From positions 1-64,000 of the forward strand of contig NZ_FOXP01000002.1 in NCBI RefSeq assembly GCF_900115745.1: a stretch of DNA of 64,000 bases. The letters run 5' to 3'. The notes under the pieces were generated by a model that worked only from the letters and a program-made list of their open reading frames with translations, was not told where the DNA came from and did no database searches. This document shows, piece after piece, positions 27,624-42,565 of this stretch. Source of the DNA: Sphingomonas rubra (lineage in GTDB: Bacteria > Pseudomonadota > Alphaproteobacteria > Sphingomonadales > Sphingomonadaceae). Within the stretch, counting starts at the first letter, position 1. Every line of letters begins with the position of its first letter. Both the position numbers and the translations under genes were made by a program.

Positions 27624-28204
27624 TCAATCCTCGGGATCAACGGCCTGCTTGGCAAGTCGGGTCAGTACCGTGATCGGGTCGCGCCCTTCGCCGTAGCCGT
27701 ACTGGGCAGCCTCGCGCTTCGTACACCGACGCTCCATCGCCTCGCGGTCACAGCAGTCGAGCGCGAACGCGACGCGCACCTTCTCGCCATTGTCGCACGC
27801 GATCTCCAGCCCGTCGGAACACCAGCGGGTGTTGCGCTGGTCGACGGCGACGCGGCCGTCGTGACGGCGCTCCTCGTGCCGTTCGCCGCCTCGCTGGAGC
27901 AGCAGCCCATGCACCTTCATGACGCGGTAGATGCGCTTGGGATTGGGCGCCGCGCGCCCAGTCTGCTCGGCCTGGCGGCGCAGCAGGGCATGGACGCGGC
28001 GGTAGCCGTAGGTGGGCAGATCGGCGACGAGCAGCCGGATGTCGGCGACCAGCTCGGCATCCGGCAGCGGTGGCCGTCCGCGCGGTCGTGGCGGTGGTCG
28101 GTTACGCGTCGCAGACAGATGCGGGCGGGCGATGCCGAGCGCGTCGGCGACCGCGGTCACAGAACGTCCCCCGGCAACGAGGTCGAGCGCAAGAGCAGTT
28201 TTTT
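27624..28204 (-). pseudogene. IS2-group transposase OrfB, 3' truncated
   Basis: Read from the A7 slip site, the frame gives an IS2-like OrfB start: LPTYGYRRVHALLRRQAEQ, RWCSDGLEI with the first DDE Asp, and FALDCCDREAM. Full OrfB is about 300 residues. Homology ends after about 155, so the second Asp and the Glu are missing. The last 36 residues before the stop (ERRCTKREAAQYGYGEGRDPITVLTRLAKQAVDPED) are not IS2 and come from adjoining sequence. Non-functional. Confidence 0.8.
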
Positions 28205-28558
28205 TGGGCCTGCGGCCCGGGACACGGCCTCGCGGAGCAGCTCGTTCTCCATGGCCTTCTTGCCGAGCAGCCGCTGCAGCTCGCGCACCTGCGCCTCCAG
28301 CGCCCGGTACTCGGACGCCGGCACCACCTCCTCGCCGGCTGCCGCAGCGGTCAGCGCACCCTGGTTCATCAGGCGGCGCCAGGTGAAGACCTGACTGCCG
28401 CTGATGCCGTGCTGGCGGGCGACGAGCGACACGCTCATCCCCGGCAGATACGTCTCCTCGACGATCCGGACCTTCTCCTCCGGTGTCCAACGCCTCCGGC
28501 GCTGAACACCGGAGAGGACCTCCCCGTCATTGTAACGCCTGGTCGTACCGTCAGTCAT
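28157..28558 (-). CDS. IS2-group transposase OrfA (HTH protein)
   Basis: 133 residues from ATG 28558. HTH region RRRRWTPEEKVRIVEETYLPGMSVSLVARQHGISGSQVFTWRR, then EYRALEAQVRELQRLLGKKAMENELLREAV, a leucine-zipper-type segment shared with IS2 InsC. The A7 run near the end (28199-28205, read on the minus strand) is a -1 frameshift site into OrfB. The gene itself appears complete. Confidence 0.85.
   Translation of the reverse strand: MTDGTTRRYNDGEVLSGVQRRRRWTPEEKVRIVEETYLPGMSVSLVARQHGISGSQVFTWRRLMNQGALTAAAAGEEVVPASEYRALEAQVRELQRLLGKKAMENELLREAVSRAAGPKKLLLRSTSLPGDVL
28199..28205 (-). promoter_or_regulatory. A7 programmed frameshift site in the IS3 element
   Basis: Seven A on the minus strand at the OrfA/OrfB overlap, in phase for a -1 slip (OrfA CCA AAA AAA CTG, OrfB CCC AAA AAA ACT). 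This is the standard IS3-family way of making the OrfAB transposase. Confidence 0.75.
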
Positions 28559-28629
28559 ATGCCTCACTCTTATCTAAGAGCGAGACCCTGTCAGGTCATT
28601 TGAGGGGCCACCTCACAGAAAACCGTCGA

Positions 28630-30581: not shown

Positions 30582-31403
30582 TCATCCCGACCCCGCCAAG
30601 TCGAGCCACCAGCGCCGGTAGACGAAGCCGAAAGCACCGTCTGCCAGCTCCTCATAGGCCAGCGGCTCACCGTCCACGTAGACGGCGTGCAGGGTAGGGG
30701 AGGGGTGTTGTACCCGTCCGTTCAACCCGCATGCTTCCCAGTTGCTGCACGACACGTAGGCGCGTGACCGGCCGTTGGCATGCGGCTGCGACAGGAAGCG
30801 GCGCTTGGCTGCCAATGTGCCGGCATTGCTCATCCGATCGTGCGTCGGATTGACGATGATGTCCGCCGCCATGAGCGCAGCACCAGCCTCATCGTCGACG
30901 AAGCTGAGCGTGTCGCGTCCGCGCACCAAGTTGAGCTCGCCGCAAACAAGCGCAAACGCGCTATACGGCCCAACCGCAATGTTGCGGTTGGGCAGGTGAC
31001 GGCGAAAGCGGGCGCGAGCTTTGCCGTCGGCCGCTGTCGCCTCTTCCATGGTCGAAAATGCTTGCCGGCCGAAGCGGTGGAGATCGCCGCGGCCGCTGAT
31101 CGCCCACATGGCGTGGCTGCGGCCGGAGCGTCGTTGCGTGCGGCCATCCCAGTGTACCTCGGTGATGATCAGGCCGTCGCGCTCATCGTCGGCGATCTCA
31201 CCGGCCAAGCGGTGCAGCTGCTTGCGGTTGTGAACGGCGTAGCCGGCAGTGACGAGCAGGTCGGGACCATAGGCGTCTGACGCTGCGAGGATGAGGCGGG
31301 TGCGCTCGGCCGGCGGCAGCAGCATGGTGTCCTGGCAGCGGGGAAATGAGAGGGTGCCCAACGACAGGCCGCGGCGAGGCAGCGGTGTGAGTTTGCGCGG
31401 CAC
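30582..31403 (-). CDS. Nitrilase/carbon-nitrogen hydrolase-like protein, divergent
   Basis: 273 residues from GTG 31403, two bases after the DUF3768 stop; longer frames overlap DUF3768. The pattern follows the nitrilase fold: GTLSFPRCQDTM, AASDAYGPDLLVTAG, then FALVCGELN with Cys 154 where the catalytic Cys stands, ADIIVNPTHDR, and RAYVSCSNWEACGLNGR. But the usual Glu (DLLVFPE) is replaced by DLLVTAG, and a catalytic Lys is not clear, so it may lack amidase activity or use other residues. Not a previously named family that I know. Probably co-transcribed with DUF3768. Confidence 0.6.
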   Translation of the reverse strand: MPRKLTPLPRRGLSLGTLSFPRCQDTMLLPPAERTRLILAASDAYGPDLLVTAGYAVHNRKQLHRLAGEIADDERDGLIITEVHWDGRTQRRSGRSHAMWAISGRGDLHRFGRQAFSTMEEATAADGKARARFRRHLPNRNIAVGPYSAFALVCGELNLVRGRDTLSFVDDEAGAALMAADIIVNPTHDRMSNAGTLAAKRRFLSQPHANGRSRAYVSCSNWEACGLNGRVQHPSPTLHAVYVDGEPLAYEELADGAFGFVYRRWWLDLAGSG

Positions 31404-31405
31404 CG

Positions 31406-31762
31406 CTAATACTCGCTGGCCAACATGACCGTCAGCACCCGCAGCGTTACCGAGGGGTCGGCAGCATCGGGCGAGGCGCCACGCATGTTGCGGTCGTAGC
31501 AGTCGATCTTCCAGAACAGCTTGGTGCCGCGCCACGCGAGAGCACCAAAGTCGTGCTCGCCATATGGATCGTTGTCGGAGGTGAAGGCGTCGAACGCCCG
31601 CACCTCCGCGACAATCGCGGTCAAAGCCCCTTGCGCCAGCTGGATCACGCCGGCGGTAGCAACCAGCATGCCTTCGACGCCGGTGGTGCGAAAACGGTCG
31701 TTGAGGCGGGCGATCGCACTCGGGTCGATCTGCTGAGGGCGTGCGTCATCCTTCGCGGTCAT
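31406..31762 (-). CDS. DUF3768 family protein
   Basis: 118 residues. The conserved block LNDRFR, GVIQLAQGALTAIVAEVRAFDAFTSDNDPYGEHDFGAL, KLFWKIDCYDRNMRGASPDAADPSVTLRVLTVMLASEY is characteristic of DUF3768, which is found mainly on plasmids and integrated elements of alphaproteobacteria. Function unknown. The small size and mixed charge suggest a soluble cytoplasmic protein. Confidence 0.92.
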   Translation of the reverse strand: MTAKDDARPQQIDPSAIARLNDRFRTTGVEGMLVATAGVIQLAQGALTAIVAEVRAFDAFTSDNDPYGEHDFGALAWRGTKLFWKIDCYDRNMRGASPDAADPSVTLRVLTVMLASEY

Positions 31763-31825
31763 GCGAATACTCCTTGGTTCAGCGGTGTTGGGGGTTAGGA
31801 AAGAAGGAGAGGAGGCGTGCCGGGC

Positions 31826-32404
31826 TCAGACGAGGCGGACGAGCTTGCGCTGGGCGACGCGGTCGCCTTCTATATACCGCTCGGTCGTGTGCAGGTGCCG
31901 GTGACCGGCGAGTTCCTGGACGTCGCGCAATGACCCGCCGCTACGTGGCAGCAGCCGAGCGGTTCGGGTGATGAAGGTGCGGCGACCAGAGTGCGAACTG
32001 CAGCCCTGTAGGCCCAAGGCCGCATAGGTCGCGGTAAACCAATTGACGATGCTGGCGGGCGTCATGTGGCGGTTGCGCTCGGACCGGATGACCGGTCCAT
32101 CCCCGGGCGACCCCGCTGCGGCGTGAAGGTGCTTCAATGCGACGGCGAGTTCGGGATGAAGCGGGATGCGGCGGGGCGAACCGTTCTTGGTAATGCTACC
32201 GGCCAGGTAGAGCTGATCGTTGAGGCGACCATTGGACCGCAGCACCATGGGCCAAGTGAGGCCAGCGATCTCGCAGGCGCGAAGGCCAGCTTTGAAGCTC
32301 AACAGGATGATGACGCGGTCGCGCGTCGCGTGCCGGCGCGCAGCAACGGACCGGACAAGCCGGCGCAAGTCGCCACGCTCCAGCACCCGGGCGGGGTGGG
32401 GCAT
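31826..32404 (-). CDS. Short tyrosine recombinase, catalytic domain only
   Basis: 192 residues from ATG 32404. Catalytic set: Arg in GLRACEIAGLTW, Lys in TKNGSPRRIPL, CSSHSGRRTFITR (His-x-x-Arg), LAGHRHLHTTERYI (His and Tyr). Full-length integrases have about 150 more residues at the N-terminus for core and arm binding; here only the catalytic domain exists, as in some mobile-element recombinases. A perfect 8-base inverted repeat is 22 bases upstream of its ATG. Confidence 0.88.
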   Translation of the reverse strand: MPHPARVLERGDLRRLVRSVAARRHATRDRVIILLSFKAGLRACEIAGLTWPMVLRSNGRLNDQLYLAGSITKNGSPRRIPLHPELAVALKHLHAAAGSPGDGPVIRSERNRHMTPASIVNWFTATYAALGLQGCSSHSGRRTFITRTARLLPRSGGSLRDVQELAGHRHLHTTERYIEGDRVAQRKLVRLV

Positions 32405-32560: not shown

Positions 32561-34495
32561 TCACGCCTCCAAGTCGGTCACGATAAAGCGATAGGCCGGC
32601 ACCAACGCGCCATCTTCCCCGATCGGACGATCACGCACCTTCCGGCCCTTGGGAGGGTTCAGCCGCTGCATGAAGTCGGGATCGTCGCTCAGGGCCTGCC
32701 ACCCGGGAAAGACACGGTCCATATGGACGATCGGCACAAGGAGCTCACGCGGACCGGACCTACCGGTGTAGAGGAAAGCCGGACAGCGGCTCCGGACATC
32801 CTCGGCTACTTCGGTGATCTCCACCTTCGCCAAGTCGATCGTCGCGGGGTGCCGCATCAAGGCAACGAGTCGGTCGTCGAAGCTGATGGCGACGCGCGCA
32901 TGAGCCCGATGGAGCGAAAGGGCCGCCAACGCGGCGCGGCCGCATTGGTAGGGAGGTGGTAGAGCACCGGCCGTTTTCGCCAGGCGGCCACCTGCGTAAA
33001 CGAGCCCGATCGCCTGCGCGACGCGCAGGTGTGAGCCGTCGTTCGTGTTGGTGCCTGCACGCTCGATGAACTCCGCGACATAGCCCTCGACCTTGCGCCG
33101 CAGTGCCTTGGGCCGACGAGCAGCTTCCTTGGCGAGATACGCCAAGTAAACGGGCATAGCATGCCCATAGTTCTCCGCCGCAGCCCGCTTCAGTGCCTCC
33201 GCAAGCGCTCCCGATGATGGGAAGGAAGGCGGGCAGTTATCGAAGATGCCGTGGGGCCGCTCGTTAAGGATCGGCAGAGTGATTAGCCGGTCGGCGATCG
33301 CGTCTGCCTCAGCCACGTGTGCCGATCCGAGCAGTGTCGCGATAGGCTGGTTGGTCGAGAGAACATACACAAGGCGTGAACGAGGGCCTGCAGGCGTACC
33401 AAAGCGATGCTTCACCTGCCCCGCAGCAAGGCGAAAGGCTATGTCCCGAGTAGTTGCCGCCCGTGTCTGCGTCCTGCCTGCACCCTCCACGAGTCCCGCT
33501 TCATCCAGTACCATGGTCATGTCGTTGTAGTGCTCCATGACCATTTCGAGTGCATTGTTTGTGGCGTTTAGGCTGCGCCAGTAGGTGGCGTCGTCATCGC
33601 CGATGGCGGGGCCCGCAGCCGAAGCCATGATCAGCTGGAGAGTGGATTTGCCGCAGCCGGGCGGGCCGGCGAGCTCAAGGCCGATATTGTCGGCCCGATT
33701 GGTCCAGCGCAGCAGAGGCGCGGCAAACATGGCCATCATCATGAACGACGCCAGGTCATGCTCGGCGAGCGGAGCTGCGACCTGGTCGAGCCAACCGGCC
33801 AGCGTTCCACCTTGGTCCAACATGCCACTCACTGGGGCGAACGTCACCAGCGGGTAGGGTTCGTCGCCAGCAACGTAGACCCGCCCGCTTGCCGCGGCGA
33901 ATCCATGCTTGGTCCATCCCGGCTTGCTCACGATCTTGGCACTGTGGAAGCGCTTGATCTGGTCAACGGCTTCGCGAACATCACCCATGCCTCCGACGAC
34001 GATGATGCCAGCCTGCTTCAACGCGGCCGAACCCTCGCTGCTGCTACCGTGGAACACATCGTAACGAGTGGTGACCTCGCGACGACCTTGGCGGAAGTGG
34101 ATGTAACGGGTCCCGTCACCATCCCGCAGGCCATTGATGCCGATCTTGCTGCCGTTGCCCAGCACCACCGTCTGCTCCGGCTTGATGGTCACCCTCCGCG
34201 GCAGCGCAACATTCGCAACATTCGCGGTATTCGACCCCGGCTTGCCCTTCTCGCCCTCCTTGGTGCGAAGACGCTTCCGAAGCGTCTGGTCGCGAGAGAC
34301 CTCCGGAGCTGGCACGGAACTGTAATAGCGCTCAATCTTGCGGCGGGCGTTGCCGCAGTCGTCACCGTGCTTGAGGCGTGAACGCACAATTGTTTTGTCG
34401 AGTTCTGCCGCGAAGTCAGTGCGGTCAGCAGGGCGTTCTGAGGCGGGGGTCGGCTTGTCGCCGGCTTCACGGCGGGTCTTGAACTTGGAAGCCAT
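32561..34495 (-). CDS. DUF927 domain ATPase (replication-type)
   Basis: 644 residues from ATG 34495. After a basic, Glu/Lys-rich N-terminal 110 residues comes a DUF927 region (KIGINGLRDGDGTRYIHFRQGRRE) and an AAA/SF3-like ATPase core: Walker A GPPGCGKST near 277-285, Walker B TMVLDEAG near 327-334, and an Arg-rich sensor segment (LVYVLSTNQPI). DUF927 ATPases are found in plasmids, phages and satellites together with primase or Rep genes. Probably a replicative helicase of the island. Separated from the HUH-like gene by 183 bases. Confidence 0.85.
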   Translation of the reverse strand: MASKFKTRREAGDKPTPASERPADRTDFAAELDKTIVRSRLKHGDDCGNARRKIERYYSSVPAPEVSRDQTLRKRLRTKEGEKGKPGSNTANVANVALPRRVTIKPEQTVVLGNGSKIGINGLRDGDGTRYIHFRQGRREVTTRYDVFHGSSSEGSAALKQAGIIVVGGMGDVREAVDQIKRFHSAKIVSKPGWTKHGFAAASGRVYVAGDEPYPLVTFAPVSGMLDQGGTLAGWLDQVAAPLAEHDLASFMMMAMFAAPLLRWTNRADNIGLELAGPPGCGKSTLQLIMASAAGPAIGDDDATYWRSLNATNNALEMVMEHYNDMTMVLDEAGLVEGAGRTQTRAATTRDIAFRLAAGQVKHRFGTPAGPRSRLVYVLSTNQPIATLLGSAHVAEADAIADRLITLPILNERPHGIFDNCPPSFPSSGALAEALKRAAAENYGHAMPVYLAYLAKEAARRPKALRRKVEGYVAEFIERAGTNTNDGSHLRVAQAIGLVYAGGRLAKTAGALPPPYQCGRAALAALSLHRAHARVAISFDDRLVALMRHPATIDLAKVEITEVAEDVRSRCPAFLYTGRSGPRELLVPIVHMDRVFPGWQALSDDPDFMQRLNPPKGRKVRDRPIGEDGALVPAYRFIVTDLEA

Positions 34496-34678
34496 GAGTA
34501 ATCCTTCGATTCTGGATGGCGTGCAGCGTCGCACCGAGCGCACGAGTGTGAGCAACGGCCGGCGGCACGTAGTGCTAGCGTTAGGTAGTGGTGTTTGAGG
34601 GCAGTCTAGCCGTGTATAGCTGTTGCAGTTGGCCCTATCCGGTTCAACCAGCCCTCATTAGTGTACACTTGCAGTTGT

Positions 34679-35281
34679 TCAGGTAACCATCAGACCTGCG
34701 CTGGTGGCATGCATGCCCATCAACAACGTGACTTCTTCCAGGCGCCAGCGATCGAGGAAGCGGAGGTACTCGATCTCTGCTTCTCCCCGAATGCGGACAG
34801 CCTTGCTGTTGTAGGCCTTCCGCAGCCCGTCGACATCCATGTACGTCTCACGCAGACCCCAAAACCGCTTCATTGGGTACGTGATCGGATCGGGCATGTT
34901 CGTGAGCGGACCACGCTGCACCAGCACCGGGGTGATGGCAGCGTCGCGGCCGTCGTGAGGACACGCTGGACGATACTTGCGCAGGTGTCGCAAGCCGTCG
35001 ACGATCTGCACCATGGGGCCAACTGCAATGCCGTGAATGTGCAGCGGATAGCTCTTGGTAGTTGGATCGTAGGCGCCGTGAAGGAAGGCGATCAGCTGAC
35101 CTTCCATGGCTACGCCCATCTTGGCCGCCGAACGGTAGAGATGCTGCCGGAAGGCAGCCATGAAGCGGACGGGGTTGAAGAGATAGAGCATGCCCAACAG
35201 CACGCTCGAGTTCTCCGGTATTGTCGTGAATAATGCGTAGACTTCACGGCGTGACGGTTCGATGTAGCAGTTACTGACCAT
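34679..35281 (-). CDS. Possible HUH rolling-circle replication initiator
   Basis: 200 residues from ATG 35281. Three motifs in the order of rolling-circle Rep proteins: motif 1 ALFTTIPE (16-23), motif 2 SYPLHIHGIAVG with H81-x-H83 (HUH), motif 3 ITYPMKRF with Y135-x-x-K138. Spacing (about 60 then 52 residues) is in the range of small Reps. No HTH or helicase domain is attached. That DUF927 ATPase lies next to it fits a replication module. The match is by pattern, and a chance match cannot be excluded. Confidence 0.5.
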   Translation of the reverse strand: MVSNCYIEPSRREVYALFTTIPENSSVLLGMLYLFNPVRFMAAFRQHLYRSAAKMGVAMEGQLIAFLHGAYDPTTKSYPLHIHGIAVGPMVQIVDGLRHLRKYRPACPHDGRDAAITPVLVQRGPLTNMPDPITYPMKRFWGLRETYMDVDGLRKAYNSKAVRIRGEAEIEYLRFLDRWRLEEVTLLMGMHATSAGLMVT

Positions 35282-35597
35282 CGATCAGCTCCCAGATGGC
35301 CCCGATCACCCGAATGCGTTGGTCCCGCATGTAGCGGCTGGACGCGGCGGTGCGGGGATTGTGCGTGACCGCGGGGTCGATGGCGTCTGCCAACTCGCAG
35401 AGCGCCTGTGCTCGCCGCGGCTTGGCCGTCGATGCCCGGTTCCGGAGCACGGAAGCCCTATAACGATCCTCATCAGCGACGGCTTCCGCCGTCTCAAAGC
35501 CAGGCGTGTTGGTCAGATCGAAGCGCGGTAAGGGCGGCGGCAGCGAAGAGATGCCCGGACGGCCGACGTTCGTCGGCTTGGATGTAGCGTGAGTCAC
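35271..35597 (-). CDS. Small hypothetical protein of the island
   Basis: 108 residues from GTG 35597, overlapping the HTH gene by four bases (GTGA), and overlapping the next start by 11 bases. The N-terminus is Pro-rich (GRPGISSLPPPLPRFDLTN); the C-terminus is basic and helical (KPRRAQALCELADAIDPAVTHNPRTAASSRYMRDQRIRVIGAIWELI). Unrecognised. Probably an accessory DNA-binding or replication protein. Confidence 0.5.
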   Translation of the reverse strand: MTHATSKPTNVGRPGISSLPPPLPRFDLTNTPGFETAEAVADEDRYRASVLRNRASTAKPRRAQALCELADAIDPAVTHNPRTAASSRYMRDQRIRVIGAIWELIDGQ

Positions 35598-35821
35598 TCG
35601 GTCCCCGCTTCGCTGATGCCGTCCGCGACCAAGCGCTCTGCATCTGCAAGTAGGATGCGACGAGAGCGGCCAATGAGCATGCTTCGGACACGTTTGGTGC
35701 GCACCAGATCGCACGCCTTTGTGCGACCGCATTGAAGTAGCTCCTGAAGCTGTCCTATATTGATCAGCAAAGGCTTGAGGGTGGACGCCGCCCCCTTTTC
35801 TAGTCGGTCTTCGTTCATCAC
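35594..35821 (-). CDS. AlpA/MerR-like HTH protein (excisionase or regulator)
   Basis: 75 residues. LLINIGQLQELLQCGRTKACDLVRTKRVRSMLIGRSRRILLADAERLV is a winged-HTH (HTH_17/AlpA-like) pattern. In P4-type islands such proteins bind DNA at the attachment site or activate the integrase gene. It overlaps the following GTG start. Confidence 0.75.
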   Translation of the reverse strand: MMNEDRLEKGAASTLKPLLINIGQLQELLQCGRTKACDLVRTKRVRSMLIGRSRRILLADAERLVADGISEAGTE

Positions 35822-35911: not shown

Positions 35912-36685
35912 TCAACTTTTGGTCAACTGTTGGCTTCGCTGGATTTCCGCTGAAACCGCTTGTTCGTCCAGATCCATGAGCTTTCTGACGATCCGCTTGG
36001 CTGTCGAGTTCGATCCGACCTCGGGCCTCCGCGCAAGCATTAGCTTCACCAAGGCCGCCGGACCCCCCCGAGTTCGAATCGTCTGAATAATAGATTGTAG
36101 TTGACCCTGCGCCGCTGCAGCGAACAGGTCAGGAAACAACTCCTTCCACGCTTCATCGTTTCGGTGCAACTTTTTCTCCTTAATAAGCAGAGTTGTGCTC
36201 GTTTTATCGTTGGCGCGCAGTTTTCCAATGAGTCGGCTTACCGCCGCATTTTCCAGTTCAACGTTATATATGACTTTACGAACTGGAAGAATGGCGCGCG
36301 GCTTTCCAGACACCTTACCGATGGTGTACCTACTTGGTTGAGGGGCTAACCATGCCACATGGTTGTTGCGCCAGTTCCATAAGATTTGAGCACCTTTAGG
36401 CTCCCGTGCTAAATGGACCGGATCGATAGCAAGCATTATTCCATCTTGATTCAAATCAAGACGAATTTGCATGTTCACTCGGCGCTTTTCTAACGGCCTG
36501 ATATTACCGCATGCATATTCAGTAAGTAGAGCTTTTGCTCTAATCTTCAGTATTCCTTTCACCATGCCTTCTTTGAGCACGCTCTCAGCGATGAGATGTG
36601 ATCGGAATGCCTTTTGAGCGTGGGCAACAGCAGCGCTCAAGGAGATATAGTTCGAATCTAATTCTGTTGGATCAGTTTTCTTCAT
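35912..36685 (-). CDS. Unrecognised AT-rich gene before the integrase operon
   Basis: 257 residues, start overlapping the integrase stop by four bases (ATGA). Base composition is clearly AT-richer than the neighbours and codon use is unlike the genome (many AAA, ATT and TTT), a sign of transfer. Sequence: mixed-charge and helical, KKTDPTELDSNYISLSAAVAHAQKAF, a central beta-type region (PRAILPVRKVIYNVEL), and LRANDKTSTTLLIKEKKLH. No signal peptide, no known motif. Unknown function, co-transcribed with the integrase. Confidence 0.65.
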   Translation of the reverse strand: MKKTDPTELDSNYISLSAAVAHAQKAFRSHLIAESVLKEGMVKGILKIRAKALLTEYACGNIRPLEKRRVNMQIRLDLNQDGIMLAIDPVHLAREPKGAQILWNWRNNHVAWLAPQPSRYTIGKVSGKPRAILPVRKVIYNVELENAAVSRLIGKLRANDKTSTTLLIKEKKLHRNDEAWKELFPDLFAAAAQGQLQSIIQTIRTRGGPAALVKLMLARRPEVGSNSTAKRIVRKLMDLDEQAVSAEIQRSQQLTKS

Positions 36686-37908
36686 GTAGCACTCTGATTG
36701 AACGCATCTGGTTTGGCCGACGTTATGAAGGTAGACCAGCCTTCCAGCAGTGTGTGACGCATCGCGATAAAGTTCGTTCGCTTGTAAGCGGCCATCACCT
36801 TATCAGATACGGAATGTGCAAGGGCTGCCTCTGCCACCGCATCAGGTATGTCTGCCATCTGCTCCGCGGCCCAATCTCGAAATGAACTTCGAAAGCCGTG
36901 GACAGTGGCTTCCGTATCGGATTGCCGGACGATTTTTGATAGCGTCATGTCAGATAGGGGTTGTCCCTTGGTACCAGGGAAGAGAAGACAATGGCGTTCT
37001 CGTCGCAGTGGTTCAAGCTTTCGAAGAACGGCGACTGCACCTTCGTTCAAGGTCACAGTATGATCTCTTCGCATCTTCATCAGATGCGCGGGTCGCTTCC
37101 AGAGGCGCTGCTCAAGATCGATGTGTGACCAACAAGCGTGGCGTGTCTCGCCAGAACGTGCTGCCGTATAAATGGTAAAGAGTAAGGCTAAGCGACCAAT
37201 CGTCTCTGTGCTATCCTTGAGCAGGCTTATAAACGCCGGTACGTTCGCGTAAGGCATCGCGGCATAGTTACCGCCCTTGCTGGGCTTCGCTAGGCCGACT
37301 GATATAGACCTTCCCGGAGCCTCCGCAGGGCGCCATCCCTTGCTATGCGCAAAGTTTAACACAGTCCCGATGCGCTGTCGTACCTTCCTAGCCATATCGG
37401 GAATAGTATGCCAGATTGGCTGTAAGACCGCCTGGATGTCTGATACTGTTATCTGGTCGACCCTGCGTTGGCCAAGCAGTGGGAAGGCATGCCGCTGCAA
37501 CGACGACAGGAAAGCCTCCTGCTGACGTGGCGCCCACTGGCTCCTTAGCGTCGCGTGGGCGTGCTGCGCCGCTTCTTGGAAGGAGGGGACGCCGCGCCGA
37601 TCTTTGTCGCGTTCTGCGATCGGATCTAGCCCAGCTTCAGCAGCCTTCCGAAGGATTGCACACTTGTCTCGAGCTTCAGCCAAAGAGAGCCGCCGCCGGT
37701 GGAGCAGTGGTATTTCGATAAGCCCATCGCTTGCACGAGCTGTTAACTCAGCGGAACCGAGGCCGATGTCTCGTCGCTTGCCGTCAACCTGTACTCGCAA
37801 TAGCCAAGTACGACTGCCACTGGCCTTGACCAGAAGGTAAAGCCCATCCCCATCGGCATGCCGACCAGGCTTGGCATTTCGAACTCCAGCAGCTGTCAAT
37901 CGTGGCAA
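36682..37908 (-). CDS. P4-type tyrosine integrase
   Basis: 408 residues; starts at TTG 37908. N-terminal DUF4102 arm-binding domain (PRLTAAGVRNAKPGRHADGDGLYL), central core-binding helices (FQEAAQHAHATLRSQW), then catalytic motifs: Arg in TAARSGETRHACW, HGFRSSFRDW, and ALAHSVSDKVMAAYKRTNF with His and Tyr. Integrases of this class insert islands into tRNA 3' ends. It lies at the right border of the island and is transcribed inward. Confidence 0.93.
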   Translation of the reverse strand: MPRLTAAGVRNAKPGRHADGDGLYLLVKASGSRTWLLRVQVDGKRRDIGLGSAELTARASDGLIEIPLLHRRRLSLAEARDKCAILRKAAEAGLDPIAERDKDRRGVPSFQEAAQHAHATLRSQWAPRQQEAFLSSLQRHAFPLLGQRRVDQITVSDIQAVLQPIWHTIPDMARKVRQRIGTVLNFAHSKGWRPAEAPGRSISVGLAKPSKGGNYAAMPYANVPAFISLLKDSTETIGRLALLFTIYTAARSGETRHACWSHIDLEQRLWKRPAHLMKMRRDHTVTLNEGAVAVLRKLEPLRRERHCLLFPGTKGQPLSDMTLSKIVRQSDTEATVHGFRSSFRDWAAEQMADIPDAVAEAALAHSVSDKVMAAYKRTNFIAMRHTLLEGWSTFITSAKPDAFNQSAT

Positions 37909-41458: not shown

Positions 41459-42246
41459 GCGTGTCGGCGAGCGACCTGTCGGTGACGCTGGGCCGGCGCA
41501 CCGTGGTGCGCGGCGTTTCCGCGACGCTGAAGGCGGGCGCGCTGGTCGGTATCCTCGGCCCCAACGGGGCGGGCAAGTCCAGCCTGGTGCGCGCGCTGCT
41601 CGGCCTGCTGCCGCACGGGGGCGCGGTGTCGATCGACGGGGTGCCGCGCGCGTCGCTGTCGCGTGGCGAGATCGCGCGCCGTGTCGCCTATCTGCCGCAG
41701 GGGCAGCTGCTGCACTGGCCGGTGTCGGTGGAGCGGCTGGTGGCGCTCGGTCGGCTGCCGCATCTCGGCCCCTTCTCGCGGATCGGCGCCGCCGACCGCG
41801 CGGCGATCGACCGGGCGATGGCGCGCGCCGAGGTCGGCGCGCTGGCCGACCGCGTCGCCACCGAGCTGTCGGGCGGCGAGCGGGCGCGGGTGCTGCTCGC
41901 CCGCGCGCTGGCGGTGGAGGCACCGGTGCTGGTCGCCGACGAGCCGCTCGCCAGCCTGGACCCCGCCCACCAGATCGAGGGCATGGAGCTGCTGCGCGCC
42001 GAGGCGGACGCGGGCGGGCTGGTCGTCGCGGTGCTGCACGACCTGACGCTGGCCGCGCGTTTCTGCGACCGGGTGCTGGTGATGGCGGACGGCGCGCTGG
42101 TCGCCGACGGGCCGCCCGCGGCGGTGCTGACGCCGGCGTTGCTGGCGGAGGTCTATGGCATCACGGCCACAGTGACGGGCGGCGAACGACCGCTGCTGGT
42201 GCCGCTGGACCGCGTGCCGTTGACGGGGCGGTCGCCCCCCGCCTAA
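41455..42246 (+). CDS. btuD: BtuD-type ABC ATPase
   Basis: 263 residues from GTG 41455. Walker A GPNGAGKSS near 38-46, Q-loop LPQG, signature LSGGERARV, Walker B VLVADEP, and switch His in VLHDLTLAARFC. It is the energy-coupling part of the BtuCDF-type importer with the two neighbouring proteins. The cobalamin riboswitch begins about 15 bases after its stop. Confidence 0.93.
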   Translation: MSVSASDLSVTLGRRTVVRGVSATLKAGALVGILGPNGAGKSSLVRALLGLLPHGGAVSIDGVPRASLSRGEIARRVAYLPQGQLLHWPVSVERLVALGRLPHLGPFSRIGAADRAAIDRAMARAEVGALADRVATELSGGERARVLLARALAVEAPVLVADEPLASLDPAHQIEGMELLRAEADAGGLVVAVLHDLTLAARFCDRVLVMADGALVADGPPAAVLTPALLAEVYGITATVTGGERPLLVPLDRVPLTGRSPPA

Positions 42247-42259
42247 GGGCCGCGCCGCG

Positions 42260-42448
42260 ACAGGTTCCCCGGCAACGGGGATGAAAAGGGAACGGGGTTC
42301 GAGACCCCGGCTGCCCCTGCAACTGTGAGCGGCGAGCCAGCGTGCCACATGCCATTGGGGTTTCCCCGAGAAGGCGGCACGACGGGGTTCGGCAGGATCG
42401 CCCTGCCGGCCGGCATTGACCCGCGAGCCAGGAGACCTGCCCGTCGCG
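42260..42448 (+). ncRNA. Cobalamin (B12) riboswitch
   Basis: The B12 box GCCAGGAGACCTGCC at 42427-42441 is canonical, preceded by the core: AGGTTCCC near the start, ACTGTGAGCGG, and a GGGGTTT...CCCC arm. The element is about 190 bases and lies before the TonB-receptor gene. It represses when adenosylcobalamin is bound, in most bacteria by blocking translation or causing termination. It covers the non-coding gap between btuD and btuB. Confidence 0.93.
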
Positions 42449-42565
42449 GTCGTTCTTCGACCGGCCAGGGTGTGCCGGACGGACGGGGGTGAACCCGCGA
42501 AACGACGAACAACCACCGTCTCGAAGCCCAGGGCTTCGGGGCGCATCGTCATTTGGGGTTTATCA

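Follow-up and report, generated by a model that had tools for sequence, protein, structure and literature searches.

The window, that is, the whole stretch of 64,000 nt from Sphingomonas rubra that was analysed, carries a genomic island with an HUH-like gene. The features of the island used below all lie on the minus strand:

31406..31762, minus: DUF3768 protein, a recurrent neighbour (tblastn match in 6 of the 16 other loci)
31826..32404, minus: short tyrosine recombinase of 192 aa, XerC-like (L022 and L025 have copies at 62% identity)
32561..34555, minus: DUF927 AAA+ helicase-like protein (Pfam E 1e-20; by eye, the likely true ATG start is at 34495)
34568..34577, minus: TAGCACTACG, a degenerate variant of TAACACTRCA with 2 mismatches, 101 nt past the HUH stop
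34679..35281, minus: HUH-like endonuclease domain, 200 aa (ATG start; F18-P22, H81/H83, Y135)
35271..35597, minus: N-terminal domain of the HUH protein as a separate ORF (GTG start, by eye, overlapping the stop of the HTH gene)
35594..35821, minus: small AlpA/excisionase-like HTH protein (weak; matches in L022, L042, L050 and L051)
35912..36685, minus: 257-aa protein without family, between the integrase and HTH genes
36682..37908, minus: P4-type tyrosine integrase, 408 aa (Arm-DNA-bind_3, Phage_int_M, Phage_integrase)

A first, sequence-only reading had described a 200-aa ORF with three Rep motifs in this island, and its coordinates, ATG start and residue positions all agreed with what we found (F18-T19-T20-I21-P22; H81-I82-H83; Y135-P136-M137-K138). 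The two tyrosine recombinases that it placed nearby are the P4-type integrase of 408 aa and the XerC-like protein of 192 aa. Its description of the initiator as "minimal" had to be given up. The 200-aa protein corresponds to the C-terminal domain of a larger one, from which it has been separated: in most homologues an N-terminal part of ~100 aa and the HUH domain are fused into a protein of ~300 aa. In the window the N-terminal domain is encoded at 35271-35597 (minus), and the stop of this ORF overlaps the HUH start by 11 nt. The gene is also split in Novosphingobium fluoreni, where the two ORFs overlap as ATGA. The split follows the same domain border in both genomes, which makes a functional fission of the gene, with translation of the two parts coupled, more likely than decay. 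Locus L024 has two frames as well, but there the frameshift lies within the N-terminal domain.

The same reading had proposed an AlpA-type HTH gene upstream. The ORF is present at 35594-35821 (minus). Four other loci have ORFs in the corresponding position, and these matched HTH_17 better (E 8e-4 to 1e-7, with one above the cut-off); the window protein itself gave only sub-threshold HTH_17/excisionase matches (E 0.011 and 0.047).

Integration and cargo of the elements

The window integrase had a tblastn match in 10 of the 16 other loci. We found tRNA genes in 13 of the 16 fetched regions, and in eight of the ten integrase-matched loci a tRNA gene lay within about 0.3 kb of the integrase. Att repeats were recovered in two of the seven elements examined: the G179 element (25,231 bp) is bounded by a 17-nt repeat and the G992 element (38,923 bp) by a 15-nt repeat, in each case of the 3' end of tRNA-Ser, and ARAGORN reported no tRNA at the distal copies of these two repeats. 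For G195b the best repeat was a 13-mer, and for G828, G803, G168 and G387 no repeat of 12 or more was seen in the sequence at hand. Around the integrase of the window itself we found no att repeat, only scattered 12-14-mers and imperfect pairs of 14-21 nt. IS3-like transposase ORFs (27624-28567, minus; HTH_Tnp_1 in the first) lie at the left side of the island, and the left attachment site is possibly missing because of them. The flanking PEP-CTERM-like gene was matched in 11 of 60 other genomes of the genus at 33-60% identity and is thus too diverged for an empty site to be read.

Several further genes were recorded in the window. The pair of XerC-like recombinase and DUF3768 genes (31406-32404, minus) recurs in L022 and L025. 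The product of 30582-31535 (minus), 317 aa long, belongs to no known family; element L050 encodes a relative at 54% identity. A cobalamin riboswitch (Rfam RF00174, 111.5 bits) was found at 42245-42458 (plus) before a TonB-receptor-like ORF, with ABC-transport-like ORFs adjoining.

The content of a delimited element could be studied in G179 (Novosphingobium sp. MD-1). It carries matches to MzaB, C, D and E together with a C5-methyltransferase and Vsr (L098:2574-11895), i.e. an Mza-type anti-phage cluster, and furthermore a resolvase-family protein of 200 aa. Its scanned ORFs include an integrase and an HTH protein and showed no separate primase and no phage late gene.

Conservation and class of the HUH-like protein

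We collected homologues from 396 genomes of the order, 397 of the family, 385 of the class and from genome_contigs. The order search returned 11 loci in 10 genomes, the family search matched nine genomes (four already known) and gave 5 further loci, and the five loci from genome_contigs contributed 1 further distinct homologue. In total 17 distinct homologues were available, the window included, and the other 16 share 22-34% identity with the window protein. Four weak relatives (G148, G277, G109 and G248; E 0.003-0.007), of which three contain stops, were left out, as a profile search of the same set came out without them. In the class profile search the own genome was the sole match among the best 8 candidates listed for each of the 385 genomes. 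Plasmids and phages gave 0 matches with the window protein as query (in the profile searches, among the best 8 candidates listed per genome), plasmids gave 0 matches with the Qipengyuania protein, and viral contigs gave 0 matches with three queries. The hosts include Novosphingobium fluoreni, Novosphingobium sp. MD-1, Qipengyuania algicida, Sphingopyxis italica and Sphingopyxis sp. L1A2A. Three named hosts were looked up in the NCBI taxonomy and all belong to the Sphingomonadales, and the homologue genomes from the order and family searches, the named ones among them included, are of the same family as the window. So far the HUH-like family has been found only in relatives of the window genome within the Sphingomonadales.

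Only three columns of the 17-sequence alignment are invariant: G61, H83 and Y135. H81 is present in 16 of the 17 sequences (G in L025), T19 in 15 and P22 in 13. The conservation of H81, H83 and Y135, on which the sequence-only reading had staked its proposal, is thus borne out apart from the one H81 exception, and the presumed catalytic residues are under strong conservation. The Y135-x-x-K138 motif that it had named fared less evenly: it is present in the window and its tyrosine in all 17 sequences, but position 138 is K in 7, Q in 9 and E in 1 of the 17, and K138 is not a feature of the family. The lysine of YxxK is common to many Reps, though not universal. The L025 protein (L025:9055-9975) is a second HUH homologue in genome G195; it lacks the first histidine and still has a DUF927 gene downstream.

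With the 200-aa window protein as query, neither Pfam, PHROGs and NCBIfam (to E 1) nor the PDB sequences (to E 10) gave a match, in keeping with its supposed place outside the named Rep families. For 14 full-length homologues we obtained only scattered matches of single members, the best with E 0.069 (Pfam) and 0.095 (PHROGs). A comparison search for Rep_1 gave 0 matches in 120 genomes and also in 14 controls and is hence uninformative. For the comparison with PF23343 (REP_ORF2-G2P) we used an alignment of that family into which 16 out of 20 loci had been taken. The hhalign score of 18.9 (P 0.063, probability 0.9%) is without significance; the alignment keeps 99 columns in register and places HxH on the HUH motif and Y135 on the tyrosine of that family. 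The scores of 20 controls with shuffled columns were 8.2-12.9, and their alignments covered no more than 14 columns.

We consider it probable that the protein is a one-tyrosine HUH endonuclease, reduced in the window to its catalytic domain, that its family has no name so far, and that it serves as the replication initiator of an integrative element. The order of the motifs bears on an alternative which we regard as unlikely, namely that the protein is a mobilisation relaxase nicking an oriT for transfer by a conjugative helper, with the DUF927 protein as an accessory. Plasmid Reps carry their motifs in the order I-II-III and Mob proteins and relaxases in the order III-II-I (PMC5714925, in excerpt), so that the order I-II-III seen here is that of a Rep and not of a relaxase. 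Furthermore, no relaxase family was matched, and the scanned ORFs of the 25.2-kb G179 element had no Pfam match to a coupling protein or a T4SS. What speaks for transfer comes from other islands: an HTH gene and a DUF927 gene form a conserved pair in the mobilisable islands mobilised by IncC, with a role that is called elusive and with no need for them in laboratory mobilisation (excerpt of PMC7449626), and NicK of ICEBs1 is a single nickase serving both transfer and replication (PMC5714925, same excerpt).

The DUF927 partner and the predicted fold

If the HUH-like protein is an initiator, the gene downstream of it could supply the helicase. The sequence-only reading had seen a DUF927 ATPase there, and the assignment holds: DUF927 (PF06048) is matched with 74.9 bits against a cut-off of 22.6, with GPPGCGKS as Walker A and VLDEA as Walker B. 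The protein also matched the NCBIfam model SCCmet_Cch1 (E 4e-9), at 35.7 bits far under the model cut-off of 700. DUF927 has been termed a bona fide helicase (PMC5862659, available excerpt). The suggested co-occurrence was found in most loci: in 12 of the 17 the HUH-like gene has a DUF927 gene downstream of it on its own strand. In L019, L022, L024 and L042 there was no tblastn match to DUF927 in the sequence at hand, and L021 stops at a contig edge. The Walker A pattern was matched by 7 of the 12 DUF927 proteins. A reverse search of 121 family genomes with a DUF927 profile gave 8 loci in 7 genomes, the four best with and the four weaker without an HUH-like gene, a result biased by a profile made from seven HUH-partnered copies: the profile already contained two of the four best loci, and the HUH search had found all four beforehand.

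The partner gene allows a second alternative: DUF927 could bind the origin and load itself without help, an initiator of the kind proposed for SaPIbov1 Rep and Cch, and the HUH-like protein would then have another role, for example in regulation or resolution, or be degenerate. Cch is a predicted initiator-type helicase, a distant homologue of a self-loading initiator helicase, and its operon partner is an ssDNA-binding protein and not a nickase (PMC7581432, in the part available); one HUH-like homologue, that of L025, moreover does without H81. Against this, H83 and Y135 are invariant despite an identity of only 22-34%, and four loci have the HUH-like gene without a DUF927 match (one of them, L024, with the frameshift in its N-terminal domain). 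We therefore hold a lone DUF927 initiator to be quite improbable and keep to the HUH-like protein as initiator.

We then turned to predicted structures of this protein. Two AF2 models were computed from shallow alignments of 6 and 7 rows. The model of the window protein has low confidence (pLDDT 59.5, with residues 106-138, including Y135, below 50). It shows a strand at 15-22, a helix at 37-55, strands at 62-69 and 77-87 (the latter with HxH) and a helix at 90-99, followed further towards the C-terminus by short strands and a helix at 136-144. The model of the Qipengyuania protein (pLDDT 66.0; blocks of 76-89 over residues 121-210 and of 44-65 over 211-260, which include the tyrosine at 241) has three helices as its N-terminal domain. 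Both models thus share the order strand (motif I), helix, strand, strand (HxH), helix, at low confidence and with the tyrosine region among the least certain parts, and this order of elements is compatible with an HUH core, whose hallmark is an antiparallel sheet of five strands with the HUH motif on a central one. Foldseek gave no match at E <= 0.001 for either model (best fold-search E 0.008). Its weak rows include AAV2 Rep, duck circovirus Rep, Vientovirus Rep and pMV158 RepB as well as many ferredoxin-like folds. With VIA-align, the top row of one model was a SAM-AMP lyase (Z 4.9), and for the other model ribosomal protein S6 came first (Z 6.5), with NikR and other ferredoxin-like folds in the same list (Z 5.3-6.5); Z was at most 6.5 overall. 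The weakness of these rows rules out no HUH family. A third alternative is that the likeness is convergent and the protein an RRM/ferredoxin-like binder of nucleic acids which uses the conserved His and Tyr for something else. This would suit the S6 and NikR rows and the lack of a family match, but is very improbable given that the conserved columns are HxH and Tyr in the correct order, that the profile alignment with PF23343, weak as it is, stays in register, and that four viral and plasmid Reps are among the Foldseek rows.

Candidate nick site and the proposed replication module

An initiator of the HUH type would need a site to nick, and we compared the first 160 nt past the HUH stop in the 17 loci (34519-34678 in the window), a region that lies between the HUH-like and DUF927 genes in 12 of them. 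The motif TAACACTRCA, with the core AACACT, recurs 85-110 nt past the stop. The core was found in 8 of the 17 loci (L016-L019, L022, L042, L049 and L053), in each case with a copy that starts at 86-110 nt; L049 has two copies in this range and L053 an extra copy at 12 nt. In 300 first-order Markov shuffles the commonest 6-mer occurred in at most 7 loci, a number reached twice, compared to 8 for AACACT; TAACACT occurred in 6 of the 17 loci and shuffles gave at most 4. As the motif was found by inspection, the shuffle comparison serves as a guide and is not a corrected probability. We counted 8 copies of the pattern [TC]AACACT[AG]C over the 64-kb window and the 16 loci together, and five of these copies sit 85-93 nt past an HUH stop. 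These five loci are the closest relatives (42-58% protein identity to the N. fluoreni copy), and in a DNA alignment of nine sequences the motif lines up in them only. The core is missing from 9 of the 17 loci, among them the window, where the degenerate variant listed above lies in the corresponding region. AACACT was present in three of the five loci without a seen DUF927 gene and in five of the twelve with one. With three of the eight motif loci lacking a DUF927 match, the motif goes with the HUH-like gene. We take the region of TAACACTRCA to be a candidate nick site, judging by its place and recurrence in the DNA. Its complement resembles the CRESS nonanucleotide, TAGTATTAC. A conserved hairpin at the motif was considered and rejected: some loci have local dyads whose centres differ, and only two of nine folded sequences are conspicuous, L017 (z -3.8) and L053 (z -2.7).

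Taken together, the genes suggest the following course of events. Going by their families, the P4-type integrase and the AlpA-like HTH protein would excise the element. The HUH protein, together with its N-terminal domain, would then nick the DNA shortly past the end of its gene, in or close to TAACACTRCA, and by the chemistry of such enzymes, which cut ssDNA with the help of a metal and form a 5'-phosphotyrosine bond, would remain attached to the 5' end through Y135. Where present, the DUF927 AAA+ ATPase may unwind from the nick, helicase activity being reported for a DUF927 relative, while the host polymerase would extend the 3'-OH. HUH-like protein and DUF927 protein would thus be a two-gene counterpart of the HUH and SF3 helicase fusion of CRESS-type Reps. 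In its widest form this becomes a tentative proposal, which we regard as plausible and somewhat doubtful: a new family of HUH initiators and a separately encoded DUF927 (Cch-like) helicase may make up a self-contained module by which integrative elements with defence genes replicate from a nick, the origin being directly downstream of the HUH-like gene at TAACACTRCA. Such a module would have arrived independently, and with two genes, at what the CRESS Rep does in one polypeptide. The recurrent pairing of DUF927 with a likely nickase offers a testable mechanism for how islands could copy themselves after excision. The HUH endonucleases would gain a further family, and a candidate sequence for the origin is now available.

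Parts of this scheme are already known: HUH proteins acting with a helicase occur in integrated elements (pCRESS) and nick-primed replication occurs in integrative elements (ICEBs1). The open-licence papers of our literature search gave no description of an HUH-like and DUF927 pair. A close parallel for the partner gene is given by the Cch operons of SCCmec and by SaPIbov1 Rep, where an integrative element likewise has a gene for a DUF927 AAA+ ATPase next to another gene that acts on DNA. Ccr recombinases are of the serine type, and for an SCC-type element a Ccr recombinase would be expected; both recombinases of the window are of the tyrosine type. In SCCmec the partner of Cch is the ssDNA-binding LP1413 and the recombinases are CcrAB or CcrC (excerpt of PMC7581432), whereas here an HUH-like protein and a tyrosine integrase are found.

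Gram-negative PICIs resemble the island in having int, AlpA and a replication zone, and DUF927 matches are counted in their 'Primase' family (PMC10111431, available part). They differ in that the essential PICI replication gene is a primase; in our elements the HUH-like gene precedes DUF927. PICIs also have captured phage late genes, of which the scanned ORFs of the G179 element gave no match. Among thaumarchaeal integrated elements, a Cch homologue is encoded by one and a rolling-circle endonuclease by a different one, and the available part of the source does not name the pair in one element (PMC6563490). REP_ORF2-G2P (PF23343) is alike in the register of the HUH motif and the motif-III tyrosine, with a score that is not significant. 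ICEBs1 is, like the proposed module, an integrative element replicated from a nick, in that case made by NicK (PMC5714925, in excerpt). Unlike the HUH-like protein, NicK is a Rep_trans protein with an acidic metal site in place of HxH, and ICEBs1 is conjugative. The Reps of pCRESS plasmids and CRESS-DNA viruses, to which the HUH-like protein had no sequence match, share with it the use of an HUH endonuclease working with a helicase, and outside pCRESS7 and pCRESS9 97.5% of such Reps lie in site-specifically integrated elements (PMC6668415, in excerpt). In those Reps the HUH endonuclease and an SF3 helicase are joined in one polypeptide, whereas in the elements described here the two parts are encoded by separate genes and the helicase is of the DUF927 type.
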